From: a virus
IMG/VR virus record: IMGVR_UViG_3300046001_005845
Location: 1-48,865 of that record
Reading direction: 5' to 3' (one strand)
Length of the DNA: 48,865 bases
The position numbers and the translations under genes are program-made. The notes below the pieces were generated by a model. The model worked only from the letters and a program-made list of their open reading frames with translations, was not told the DNA's origin and did no database searches. Below are positions 7,018 to 34,402 of this stretch, one piece after another (position 1 is the stretch's first letter; each line of letters opens with the position of its first letter).

Positions 7018-7373
7018 CGACGATTGTGGCGATTGGTATAGGTGCGCTGACAACGGTACTCACTTACATTTCAGGCCGCAGACCATCACAAGCTGATTAC
7101 GCTGAGAGACTGTTGAACGCAACGGTCCCCGCAGCGGAGATGCTGGGCAAGCGGCTTGCGGTGTTGGAAGACGATCTCGCTAAGAGCCGGTCACGGTATG
7201 ACAGGCTTGAAGCTCGCTCGGCGGCGGAAGCGTTCCGTTGCAACGAACTTGAACGTAAGTTCACGGCACTGATCGAACATCTCAAACAGGTAAACGTGCC
7301 GATGCCTGACAGTTTGATTCAACCGACCCGGACCGCCCGGACGCGAAAGACTGACACGGAAGAAGAAGAATGA
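6996..7373 (+). CDS. Single-TM coiled-coil protein
   Basis: 125 residues from a GTG start. One hydrophobic segment at residues 6-24, then a long charged helix (about residues 45-98, LAVLEDDLAKSRSRYDRLEA) likely to form a coiled coil, and a polar tail ending TEEEE. It overlaps the preceding gene by 22 bases and the next by ATGA. This layout recalls spanin-like or Rz-like and antiholin proteins of actinophages; the exact role is inference. Confidence 0.6.
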   Translation: MAEPFGVTTIVAIGIGALTTVLTYISGRRPSQADYAERLLNATVPAAEMLGKRLAVLEDDLAKSRSRYDRLEARSAAEAFRCNELERKFTALIEHLKQVNVPMPDSLIQPTRTARTRKTDTEEEE

Positions 7374-7807
7374 AACAGCTTGTTGTTCCTATCGTTGAGA
7401 AGGTGTTATCACAGTTCGTCCAAGCGTTCGTCGTGGCGTTGTTCGGCGGGATGGCATTCGGCTGGACCGCAGTTCAGTGCGCTGCCTTGGCAGGGGTGTC
7501 GGCGGTTATCACGCTTGCGCTCAACTCGGTCAACTCTGCTGTGATCCCTGTGGGGATGCCGTTCTACACTGACCTCACGTTGCGTGTGTTGCGTTCCGGT
7601 GCGTCTGCGTTCCTTGCGTTCATGGTGATGGCACCCGTTCTTGACGTTCAGTCAGGAGACTTCTGGAAAGCGGCGCTAGGGGCTGGGGCGGTTGGTGCTG
7701 TGTCGGCGTTGAAAGCTGAGGGCGCTCGTCGGGTTGGTGATCCTGAGTCGGCGGCGTTGCTTCCGGTTGCTTTGGATCATGTGGTTCCTGAGCCGATGGC
7801 TGACTAA
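7370..7807 (+). CDS. Holin candidate, r1t-type
   Basis: 145 residues. Begins with a short helix followed by FVQAFVVALFGGMAF (TM1, about residues 13-32), TM2 at about 35-50, and TM3 at about 78-92. A pattern of conserved glycines and a polar C-terminus fits r1t-type holins, which are common in actinophages. It overlaps its neighbour by ATGA and closes the lysis operon. Its stop overlaps the 3' end of the opposite-strand RNA candidate. Confidence 0.65.
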   Translation: MKQLVVPIVEKVLSQFVQAFVVALFGGMAFGWTAVQCAALAGVSAVITLALNSVNSAVIPVGMPFYTDLTLRVLRSGASAFLAFMVMAPVLDVQSGDFWKAALGAGAVGAVSALKAEGARRVGDPESAALLPVALDHVVPEPMAD

Positions 7808-7847
7808 AAACAAGTAACCCCCCGCCCGTAGGCGAGAGGGTTACTTG
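7804..7847 (-). terminator. Intrinsic terminator for minus-strand transcription
   Basis: CAAGTAACCC and GGGTTACTTG form a 10-bp perfect stem (7811-7820 with 7838-7847). On the minus strand the stem is followed by TTTTTAG; on the plus strand by TTCGGCC. It therefore mainly ends the minus-strand RNA coming from 8726, and may also stop the lysis operon. Confidence 0.8.
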
Positions 7848-8726
7848 TTCGGCCTTCACAGGATATGCCAGTCACATTTTCGCACTGGACTGTCCCCTCG
7901 GTTTTGTAGTTGGCTGGCCCCTGATCTGACGGCAAGTCATCGGGTACTTCAGGTACAACATCCGAGGTTACGTCCCCCCCTTCATCTGCCTCCCCGCAGT
8001 CAGTACATCAGGCGCAGTCGCCTGTGTGGTCCCCAATGCCTTGAGTGGACTCTTGCCGGGTCCGTGACCTGTCATAGGTTTACAACCCTGCAAGGGGTTG
8101 CCCTGATGTCTCTGCGGTTCTTGTTGTGCTAGTCGGACTGGAAGCGAAGTGTGCGCAACCCTTAGATATGTTGCAAGGGAGAGGAGTACGATGAGTTCCG
8201 TGGCTCTATTCCAAGAGCCGTGGTTGTATGGGTTACTCGGTGGCCGTTTGATTCTTCACCTCAAGTGCCAAGGATTGCGCACGCTTCGCTTTCAGCTTGA
8301 CTAGCTGACTTCAAGGTTTCAAGGCTTGACCAGAATGTGTAGGCTCCCACTGCGTAGCACCGATGTACCTTGCTCACGTTGATGCCTCCACCAACGCTTT
8401 GATCGACTGTTCTTGCGTCTTTCCCCGCCGGGGAGTTGCACCCCGCCACATTCTGCTCAAGGCTTGAAGCCTTGAAGTTGTTTGCCTGTTGTCTCTCAGG
8501 CTTTGCCGTTACTTTCTGTTCCTCGGCTGGAACCGTCACCGTGATGAGTAGCGGTGCGCTACTGCCACCCTTTCCCCTCTGCAAGCTCATGCTCGGGCTG
8601 TGGTGTGGACTTGAGTTGCCACCTCGCCGTTTTGCGAGTCTTGGGTCTGACTCTGGCGGTGACTTTCTCTATTTGGTTTGGTTGGTTTAGTTGGTGTTGC
8701 TCCTTTGTTGTTTGCGTTTCCCTTAT
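7805..8726 (-). ncRNA. Candidate large structured RNA of about 920 nt
   Basis: This kilobase has a minus-strand promoter at one end, an intrinsic terminator at the other, and no single convincing gene. Perfect short hairpins follow each other: 8547-8563 (AGTAGCG/CGCTACT), 8484-8501, 8457-8475, 8429-8445, 8377-8396 (8 bp, one G-U), 8292-8308, 8202-8219, 8083-8100 and 8009-8024 (CAGGCG-CAGT-CGCCTG). A 33-base inverted repeat (8307-8339 with 8447-8479, 29 matches) encloses about 107 bases. Size and layout recall the large ornate phage RNAs such as GOLLD and ROOL, but I cannot match it to either. Alternatives: short frames at 8590-8261 (109 codons), 8726-8559 (no normal start) and 8075-7968. Confidence 0.5.
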
Positions 8727-8803
8727 GTAGATAAACGTACTACAACTCATATTAGGAAAGCAAGCCCATTCGGAACATTTCTTCAGATTTCTTTTCCAAC
8801 CCC
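8724..8803 (-). promoter_or_regulatory. Promoter region with upstream motif
   Basis: Minus strand: GGAAAAGAAATCTGAAGAAAT (8797-8777), then TGTAGTACGTTTATCTACATA near 8745-8724. The start region TTTATCTACATAAGG matches the leaderless TTATCTACATGAC starts except that ATG is ATA. AAAGGAG follows at 8706-8700 with no start codon after it. The exact -10 is uncertain. Confidence 0.5.
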
Positions 8804-8836: not shown

Positions 8837-8986
8837 ATGGACGAACCCACCGCAGAAGACCTAGATCGCTACGTCGATCTTGTTGACCACGAGATGTACG
8901 CCCGCCAAGGAATCGTCATCCACGCCGGGCAGTTCCCCGACGACAACGCCCCGCACGGAATGAACGACGAAGAAGAAATGGTATGA
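8837..8986 (+). CDS. Small acidic protein ahead of the endolysin
   Basis: 49 residues, very acidic (ending MNDEEEMV). Leaderless: TACCAT (8824-8829) lies 7 bases before the ATG. Its TGA overlaps the endolysin ATG (ATGA), so it may set the translation level of the endolysin. Function unknown. Confidence 0.6.
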   Translation: MDEPTAEDLDRYVDLVDHEMYARQGIVIHAGQFPDDNAPHGMNDEEEMV

Positions 8987-9750
8987 GCCGGACGACTGCA
9001 CAACTCCGAGTCCTATGGTCACCGGCCTGCACCGGACCATTCGCTTCCGTTCCCTTATTCGGCGGCGCTTCAATCAGTGTGCGCGCTTCGACCGTTGACG
9101 CATGGCAAGCACTCAACGCTGTACTCATCAAATGGGACTACAAGGCAACCCCTCCTGATTGCGGTGCGTACAACTGCCGGGCGATCACAGGTGGCACCCA
9201 GTACTCGCTTCACGCTTACGGGATCGCTGCCGACATCAACTGGCAGAAGAACCCCTACGGGCCAGTCTTGATTACTGACATGCCTCGCGGAATGGTCGAT
9301 GAGATCAAAGCAATCAGAACCAACAACGGGGTCAACGTGTTCCGCTGGGGCGGCGACTACAGCGGAAACAAGGATGCGATGCACTATGAGATAGTTGCTT
9401 CGCCCGCAGAGATAGCAACAGGAATAGCAACCGGGTCGCAACCGATCCCAACACCGGAGGATGAAATGGCAAGCAGTTACCTACGATTGAACCAGCCCGG
9501 CGATCCGAACCACGGTCGTGTCGAAGTGATCGACGACTTCAACCGTCGTTGGATTTCGGCTGAGGAACTTCCGCTGCTGATCTTCTTCGGTGCGAAGGTA
9601 CAGGACGTAAACCTTGACACGTTCACCAAGCTGACAGCGAACAAGACGGTGAACCCGATTGTCGTTAGCGGCGGAGGGGCTACTGCACCAACGTCGGCAC
9701 AAAACGCAACAGCGACAGCCGATCTTCTCGCCAAGCGATTGCTGTCGTAA
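8983..9750 (+). CDS. Endolysin, M15 D-Ala-D-Ala carboxypeptidase family
   Basis: 255 residues. The M15 (VanY-type) zinc-peptidase motifs are visible: SLHAYGIAADIN gives H77 and D84, and HYEI gives H134, the three zinc ligands. The domain spans roughly residues 20-145. It should cut peptide bonds in host peptidoglycan stem peptides. The remaining 100 residues hold a linker and an SSYLRLNQPGDPNHGRVEVIDDFNRRWIS module that may bind the wall. No signal peptide, consistent with release through the holin. Coupled by ATGA to the small gene before it. Confidence 0.85.
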   Translation: MSRTTAQLRVLWSPACTGPFASVPLFGGASISVRASTVDAWQALNAVLIKWDYKATPPDCGAYNCRAITGGTQYSLHAYGIAADINWQKNPYGPVLITDMPRGMVDEIKAIRTNNGVNVFRWGGDYSGNKDAMHYEIVASPAEIATGIATGSQPIPTPEDEMASSYLRLNQPGDPNHGRVEVIDDFNRRWISAEELPLLIFFGAKVQDVNLDTFTKLTANKTVNPIVVSGGGATAPTSAQNATATADLLAKRLLS

Positions 9751-12477: not shown

Positions 12478-12547
12478 GAAAAAGAAATCTGAAGAAATCT
12501 TCGTTATTGGTTTGATAATGTCCTACAGGTGTAGTAGCTTCATACAC
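12478..12547 (+). promoter_or_regulatory. Leaderless promoter with upstream motif
   Basis: GAAAAAGAAATCTGAAGAAA, then TGTCCTAC (from 12519) and TAGCTT (12535-12540). The ATG at 12548 is 7 bases downstream. The upstream segment is nearly identical to that at 15597 except for a 12-base deletion between the motif and TGTC. Confidence 0.65.
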
Positions 12548-12769
12548 ATGACATCGACCGAGAACATCACATACGAAAGAGTTGTAAGCGCCGGAGCGGT
12601 AGAGCATGACGCTCTCATGGCCGAAGGACTCGCACGCCGAGTCATTGAAGGCGAAGCGTGGCTGACCCAAATCGCTCTTGACCAGATCGCAAGTCTGCGT
12701 CGAAACGCAGACTTGCTCGAACGAGCAATCGCTCGGGTCAACGAGTACAACGCTGACGCAAACAAGTAG
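12548..12769 (+). CDS. Hypothetical small helical protein, leaderless
   Basis: 73 residues, almost entirely helical (ALMAEGLARRVIEGEAW, RRNADLLERAIARVNEY), likely a coiled coil. Start moved to the ATG of ATGACATCGACCGAGAAC, which matches the leaderless starts at 15676 and 34320; a longer reading would begin inside the promoter. Function unknown. Confidence 0.65.
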   Translation: MTSTENITYERVVSAGAVEHDALMAEGLARRVIEGEAWLTQIALDQIASLRRNADLLERAIARVNEYNADANK

Positions 12770-13619: not shown

Positions 13620-13958
<339 letters not shown>

Positions 13959-14032
13959 CATTTCTCCTTCCACAAAGAAATCAGGGGTGAGCGAATTGCC
14001 CACCCCCAACCTAACACTCGGTAACGACTTCT

Positions 14033-14458
14033 CTAGCAGCCGGTGCCGTTCCACGCACTACGCCAACCGCTGTTCACGGTGTAAACCGCAACTGCGTCCT
14101 GAACGTGTGGCGGAGCGTGACGGGCGGACCCCCACCCAGCGTGGCCTGCTCGTGCGCTCATCGTGCGCCAAGTGGAATCCAAAAACTGATAAGCCCCTGA
14201 AGCAGTGCTGTTCGGATTCTTGGCGGTGTAGCTTCCGCCAGATTCGTGCCGCCTGACACAGGCAAGGAAACCACCCGGAGGCGTGTGAGCCTCCTCAACA
14301 GGTTGAGCTTGTGCTTGTAGGTGTGCTTTGACAGCAGCCTGCTCAGTTGGGTTCATCGTCGCATAGGCAGCTATCTCCTCTGCGGTACAGCTAACACTTG
14401 ACACGGCAGCTAGGATCACGATTGCCGCAATGGATACAGACCTGAGATTCAGCCTCAT
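14033..14458 (-). CDS. Rpf/transglycosylase-like lipoprotein
   Basis: 141 residues. Signal peptide with lipobox VSSVSC (C24). The C-terminal domain (about residues 60-141) reads FLACVRRHESGGSYTAKNP, then SGAYQFLDSTWRTM, then a short helix and NSGWRSAWNG, the layout of the Rpf/lysozyme-like fold; the E of RRHESGG is the expected catalytic acid. It should cut glycan strands of peptidoglycan from outside the membrane. The pairing with the stalk lipoprotein just downstream suggests surface remodelling. ATG at 14458 follows GAGG; GTG at 14464 is an alternative. Confidence 0.8.
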   Translation of the reverse strand: MRLNLRSVSIAAIVILAAVSSVSCTAEEIAAYATMNPTEQAAVKAHLQAQAQPVEEAHTPPGGFLACVRRHESGGSYTAKNPNSTASGAYQFLDSTWRTMSARAGHAGWGSARHAPPHVQDAVAVYTVNSGWRSAWNGTGC

Positions 14459-34327: not shown

Positions 34328-34402
34328 ACGATACAGCACCTCTAGGACATTATCAAGTCAATAATGGTCAATATCGAAGATTTCTTCAGATTTCTTTTCG
34401 AC
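34328..34402 (-). promoter_or_regulatory. Leaderless promoter with upstream motif
   Basis: GAAAAGAAATCTGAAGAAAT at 34400-34381, TGTCCTAG from 34349 and TATCGT at 34333-34328. It is almost identical over 50 bases to the promoter at 15596-15668. Confidence 0.7.

Follow-up and report, generated by a model that had tools for sequence, protein, structure and literature searches.

Does the interval between the two lysis genes of this viral genome encode a large structured RNA, and does such an RNA belong to a class that is already known? The window analyzed here is the whole of a 48,865-base IMG/VR viral contig. Its phage portal and capsid proteins are ~30% identical to actinobacteriophage counterparts in protein matches, and the carrier phages are probably a little-known group infecting actinobacteria. 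Between the holin and endolysin genes, a "large ornate phage RNA" had been predicted at positions 7805–8726. Our comparison of related phages places the gene within ~10 bases of these coordinates, on the minus strand (Table 1), and bears out the description: the locus is noncoding, displays strand-specific covariation, carries its own promoter motif and terminator, and is conserved in seven distinct phage sequences. The locus is very probably a large folded noncoding phage RNA gene that forms a class of its own.

Table 1 Features of the RNA locus and its surroundings, in coordinates of the window
Feature	Position	Strand	Evidence
Whole noncoding RNA gene, ~915 nt	7806–8721	−	Noncoding and structured; conserved across seven distinct phage sequences
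Holin, convergent with the RNA	7370–7807	+	PHROG 443 holin, E 3.7e-6
M15 peptidase endolysin, divergent from the RNA	8983–9750	+	Peptidase_M15_4, E 1.5e-11
Promoter-like region: box AAAAGAAATCTGAAGAAAT (8795–8777), imperfect inverted repeat TGTAG...CTACA, –10-like TATCTA (8733–8728)	8725–8795	−	Ten box copies in the window
Box AAAAGAAATCTGAAGAAAT copies	1770(−), 2739(−), 3664(+), 8795(−), 12480(+), 15598(+), 17428(+), 24609(−), 34398(−), 36726(+)
Variable 5' leader: A/C-rich linker with AAGGAG (8705–8700), then hairpins	8563–8720	−	Alignment, motif check
5' core, ~83 nt: small hairpins (e.g., 8484–8501), P1 5' strand CGGCAA (8508–8503)	8480–8562	−	94–99% identical to relatives
Optional arm M1: rod, long base-paired stem (the predicted inverted repeat)	8308–8478	−	Alignment; fold z
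Optional arm M2: second rod, stem arms 8305–8270 and 8163–8128	8128–8305	−	Alignment; fold z
Big 3' arm of the core, a branched structure of 7 helices (45 pairs)	7994–8117	−	Compensated pairs, shuffles, slid controls
Hairpin and P1 3' strand TTGCCG (7935–7930)	7930–7993	−	All six P1 pairs unchanged across the alignment
3' tail, of two dissimilar types across the family	7850–7929	−	Alignment, block identities
Intrinsic terminator, hairpin and U tract	7806–7849	−	Relatives keep the hairpin but with a changed sequence

Searches with the two flanking proteins and with DNA patterns of the RNA led to the same small set of IMG/VR contigs. The seven distinct sequences are the window and six relatives (L005, L004, L009, L008, L012 and L003); L035 is nearly a duplicate of the window, L006 equals L005 in the aligned stretch, and L013 equals L012 where the two were compared. 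The relatives carry the same RNA island between holin and endolysin. The distribution is narrow, with ~ten contigs among 2.9 million. A covariance model of the 133-nt big arm gave no convincing match besides the known set in records of related phages, and no match in a sample of 397 genomes of the actinobacterial phylum, a search run without a positive control; phage records gave no DNA match to the RNA. Pattern matches in the genome collection (L043, L044, L046 and L047) and in viral contigs (L041, L042 and L073) were rejected, their similarity being restricted to the pattern itself; a further pattern match, L045, reached only E 0.74 with the model. Some records keep a close relative of one flanking gene and lack the RNA: the upstream region is different in L010 and L011, and a convergent terminase-like gene stands straight behind the holin in L027 (3294–5306) and L030 (1309–3327). 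Judging from these contigs, phages differ in whether they carry the RNA island next to the holin. Four assemblies of related phages (L002, L003, L007 and L014) stop inside the RNA or at its edge, and such breaks would be expected if co-occurring strains share the conserved core. A literature search, which spanned some but not all journals, found no paper on this RNA.

The alignment depicts the predicted RNA as a mosaic, in which a near-invariant core (the 5' core, P1 and the big 3' arm) is joined to an interchangeable leader, M1, M2 and tail. In the consensus, the 6-bp closing helix P1 encloses a small hairpin, M1, M2, the big arm and a further hairpin, and the leader lies outside it on the 5' side, with the tail and terminator on the 3' side. 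Since the P1 pairs are invariant, covariation neither supports nor contradicts this helix. M1 and M2 are both present in the window and L005; only M1 is found in L004, L009 and L012, and only M2 in L008 and L003, the inner part of the L003 M2 having diverged. None of the seven sequences lacks both arms. Besides a short form, the leader has at least two others. The tail type of the window is shared by L005, L004 and L009, and the other type is found in L008 and L012. RNA lengths counted from the promoter range across the family from ~650 to ~915 nt. The module combinations disagree with the endolysin tree, in which the sisters L003 and L005 differ in their modules. Neither M1 nor M2 has copies outside this RNA in 2.9 million viral contigs, and a reading of the two arms as mobile elements was rejected on this ground and for want of a visible target duplication.

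Folding of the region is exceptional by several measures. The 33-base inverted repeat with 29 matches in the original prediction is present at 8308–8339/8447–8478, its 29 pairs falling within 32 rather than 33 nucleotides (91% complementary). Non-overlapping perfect hairpins with stems of at least 5 bp number 14 (at least nine in the original prediction), compared to 6.0 in dinucleotide shuffles, and no shuffle out of 200 reaches 14. In single-sequence folding of the whole region against dinucleotide shuffles, z is −5.6 for the minus strand and −6.5 for the plus strand. Both strands thus fold far better than shuffles and the minus strand is not consistently favoured, so the strand is not decided by single-sequence folding and was settled by comparison. 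A strand test that folded only the window, with Watson–Crick pairs alone, was not informative either, as many of the helices predicted from one sequence lack conservation.

The comparative evidence is most pronounced in the big arm, where the 45 pairs hold in 98.7% of alignment cells. Five pairs are changed on both sides with pairing preserved, a count matched by none of 500 shuffles, and when the structures are slid by 1–3 columns only 33–39% remain paired. All one-sided changes in this arm produce G-U pairs on the minus strand and are legal on that strand only. A helix scan identified a helix, CUCAA/UUGGG, that becomes CCCGA/UCGGG in L012 and is unbroken on the minus but not the plus strand. 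The alignment folds, scored against column shuffles, give z values (minus/plus) of −5.4/−4.7 for the big arm, −8.9/−5.9 for M1, −6.5/−5.8 for M2, −4.6/−2.8 for the 3' core and −6.4/−4.1 for the type-a tail. The 5' core alone does not clearly beat column shuffles (−1.0/−0.7), and the type-b tail, represented by two sequences only, gives no structure signal. The covariation check proposed with the original prediction is therefore positive in the big arm and weaker elsewhere. The sample comprises seven distinct sequences, most pairs of which are 74–91% alike, and such few and similar sequences confer low covariation power outside the big arm.

The predicted ends of the RNA are delimited by motifs. 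Upstream of the predicted start near 8721, the minus strand carries the box AAAAGAAATCTGAAGAAAT and, after it, TGTAGTA...TATCTACAT. The window contains ten copies of the box, distributed over both strands, compared to 0–1 in mononucleotide shuffles. TGTAGTA and TATCTACAT, which form an imperfect inverted repeat, also lie downstream of several of the copies. A generic sigma-70 scan upstream of the RNA returned no promoter, and by inference the repeated motif is a phage-specific one. Hence the promoter of the original prediction is not seen as a plain sigma-70 promoter and is retained as one of ten copies of a promoter-like motif (8795–8725). The box and the repeat probably constitute a promoter belonging to the phage itself, together with an operator or an activator site. 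ORFs stand downstream of the copies at 1770(−), 15598(+) and 34398(−); that after 15598(+) has a ribosome-binding site, and the 34398(−) copy is immediately upstream of an ORF with its ATG inside TATCTACATGACATCGAC.

The –10-like stretch itself contains an ATG at 34398–34300(−) (TATCTACATGACATCGAC) and at 12480–12560(+) (CACATGACATCGAC), and ORF 34320–34087 begins at the ATG within the former. Such an ATG inside –10-like stretches suggests leaderless mRNAs. Elsewhere in the window, a low-complexity ORF with a run of valines (13693–14256, +) overlaps an ORF on the opposite strand (14464–14033), whose product resembles a secreted transglycosylase-like protein. At the other end of the RNA, the predicted terminator is found as a terminator-like minus-strand hairpin (7839–7818) with a run of T behind it, and its U tract overlaps the holin stop codon (7805–7807). 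The RNA unit is furnished with its own predicted promoter and terminator, both recognized as sequence motifs.

Alternative readings of the locus were weighed against these observations. If the locus encoded a protein, the product would come from the 109-codon minus-strand frame (8590–8261) or from a plus-strand frame. The original prediction stated that the three longest frames lack good starts; the 109-codon frame does begin with ATG in L004, L009 and the window, and it stays open across M1 in sequences that possess this arm and retain the frame upstream, yet it is not conserved as a protein. Its start is lost or the frame is broken in L005, L008, L012 and L003, the L003 core carries a two-base deletion, and half of the frame falls in the optional modules. 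Protein-level conservation, which the original prediction had named as counter-evidence to an RNA, was examined in the relatives and is absent, and no homologues of the frame were found in phages, Pfam, PHROGs or PDB. Codon changes in the frame are 12 synonymous and 24 nonsynonymous, compared to 7/30 and 10/26 in the shifted frames, so synonymous changes are not clearly in excess. The larger frames on both strands are disrupted in relatives by frameshifts, stops or module loss. In addition, the 5' core and big arm of the relatives are 88–99% identical to the window, compared to 55–77% and 58–75% at third codon positions of the holin and endolysin genes, respectively. The frameshifts in relatives refute the coding reading in practice, and a protein-coding locus is extremely improbable.

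A DNA-level element, with inverted repeats serving as a replication origin or as a recombination or packaging site and an incidental transcript, would be in keeping with the strong inverted repeats on both strands, with arms gained and lost as units, and with an SSB gene ~2 kb from the RNA gene. However, the one-sided changes in the big arm, all of them G-U on the minus strand, would correspond to A-C in an RNA read from the plus strand, and a DNA cruciform would contain them as mismatches; the promoter motif and the conserved terminator bracket exactly the RNA unit; and the hairpins are branched and mutually unlike with no direct repeats, and so are not iterated binding sites. We consider this reading quite unlikely. 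The main alternative, owing to the position of the RNA, is a regulatory RNA of the lysis cassette, that is, an antisense or interfering transcript that times expression of holin and endolysin. The gene lies between the two, converges with the holin, diverges from the endolysin and terminates at the stop codon of the holin. Against this, the predicted transcript overlaps the holin in the U tract only and is not significantly complementary to any other part of the window, antisense action does not need a 900-nt branched covarying structure, and some phages have a close holin or endolysin relative without the RNA. Lysis timing is therefore an unlikely function, less remote than a DNA element.

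The overall best explanation, which we regard as reasonably probable, is a noncoding structured RNA that acts as an infection-time scaffold and binds ribosomes or other host RNPs. In this scheme, the phage-specific promoter would switch the RNA on during infection and the transcript would fold unaided into a many-armed body. The core would be the functional centre, and M1 and M2 would serve as stiff spacers or as arms for docking, with at least one of the two being needed, as in scaffold RNAs. Such an RNA, possibly a multimer, would be neither an antisense RNA nor a coding leader. A scaffold with swappable arms, viewed by analogy, is a tentative proposal with somewhat less than an even chance; in its favour are the constant core, rod arms that are gained and lost as units, and the RNA-only multimers formed by known phage RNAs of similar size (PMC12286853).

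The leader may supply a point of contact with the host. AAGGAG at 8705–8700(−) is invariant in all rows within a variable A/C-rich stretch, and no ATG, GTG or TTG follows at start-codon distance. A likely mRNA at 1770(−) has a similar promoter–leader cassette (ACAACAAAGGAGCAAAGCACATG), in which the same leader words come before a start codon. The motif may be left over from the leader of an mRNA, or it may be a ribosome-binding site that serves no message. In the scaffold scheme, this invariant motif in a leader devoid of start codons may hold the RNA to 30S ribosomal subunits, although ribosome contact through the Shine-Dalgarno-like AAGGAG has a low, if appreciable, probability. More doubtful still is the extended version, a plug-in RNA with a constant core and arms recombining among phages, whose start-codon-less Shine-Dalgarno leader would capture 30S subunits and so gather or store ribosomes, alone or as a multimer.

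How does this RNA compare with known large RNAs? GOLLD resides in phages or prophages, often near a tRNA island, and forms an RNA-only multimeric cage, and ROOL forms an octameric RNA-only cage. OLE and raiA are host genes rather than phage genes. The pRNA of phi29, ~174 nt long and part of the packaging motor, is a phage RNA that multimerises via interlocking loops. To our knowledge, few giant phage RNA classes have been described, and none has a settled function.

The original prediction had suggested a GOLLD- or ROOL-like RNA or a new class, and the searches favour the latter. A scan with Rfam 15 gave no family at the gathering threshold, and none was accepted at E up to 10; the weak matches to mir-2057, GA-cis, Tymo_tRNA-like and UCA1 (E 0.2–7) are far below gathering scores and were judged to be chance. 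The GOLLD model (RF02032) gave no match at E ≤ 10 in the window and five relatives. The ROOL model (RF03087) gave none either, in a by-name search that is weak as a single test, its positive control being silent as well (0/14 genomes). OLE and raiA were without a match among all Rfam 15 models. The locus is phage-borne, and no tRNA was found in the 48.9-kb window, which may be incomplete.

A far-diverged member of GOLLD or ROOL missed by the Rfam models would account for the comparable length, the location in a phage, the conserved core and the presence of optional parts; many GOLLD RNAs exceed 800 nt and have one universally conserved and one variable part (PMC12286853). Considering that neither model matches at E up to 10, that cmscan returned none and that no tRNA neighbours were found in the window, this reading is very unlikely. 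Our comparison reveals further differences. Both this RNA and GOLLD are phage-borne, very large and composed of a conserved and a variable part, but here two discrete rod arms lie between two conserved blocks, whereas in GOLLD the 5' half alone is variable, and neither a model match nor a tRNA array near the RNA connects the two. ROOL is likewise phage-borne, with complex branching and a similar length (model of 574 positions and env-120 of 659 nt, compared to 650–915 nt here), but it differs by the lack of a model match, for which the control was uninformative, by the lack of a nearby tRNA array, and by the confinement of the present RNA to a handful of related phages. OLE and raiA are comparable as large structured bacterial RNAs, and phi29 pRNA as a phage RNA, with no Rfam match here. 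On the sequence comparisons made here, what the RNA has in common with GOLLD and ROOL is limited to its size, its origin in phages and its ornate structure, and it is very probably a narrowly distributed new class of large phage RNA that is absent from Rfam, with the by-name ROOL test lacking a positive control.

Known phage RNAs of similar size form RNA-only multimers, and how widespread cages are among large RNAs in nature is not yet settled (PMC12286853). A further phage class unrelated in sequence, with its natural one-arm variants, offers a ready-made deletion series for testing the parts. Furthermore, GOLLD is reported to bind ribosomes in pull-downs (work cited in PMC12286853), and the putative ribosome-binding motif without a start codon described here would tie in with that observation.
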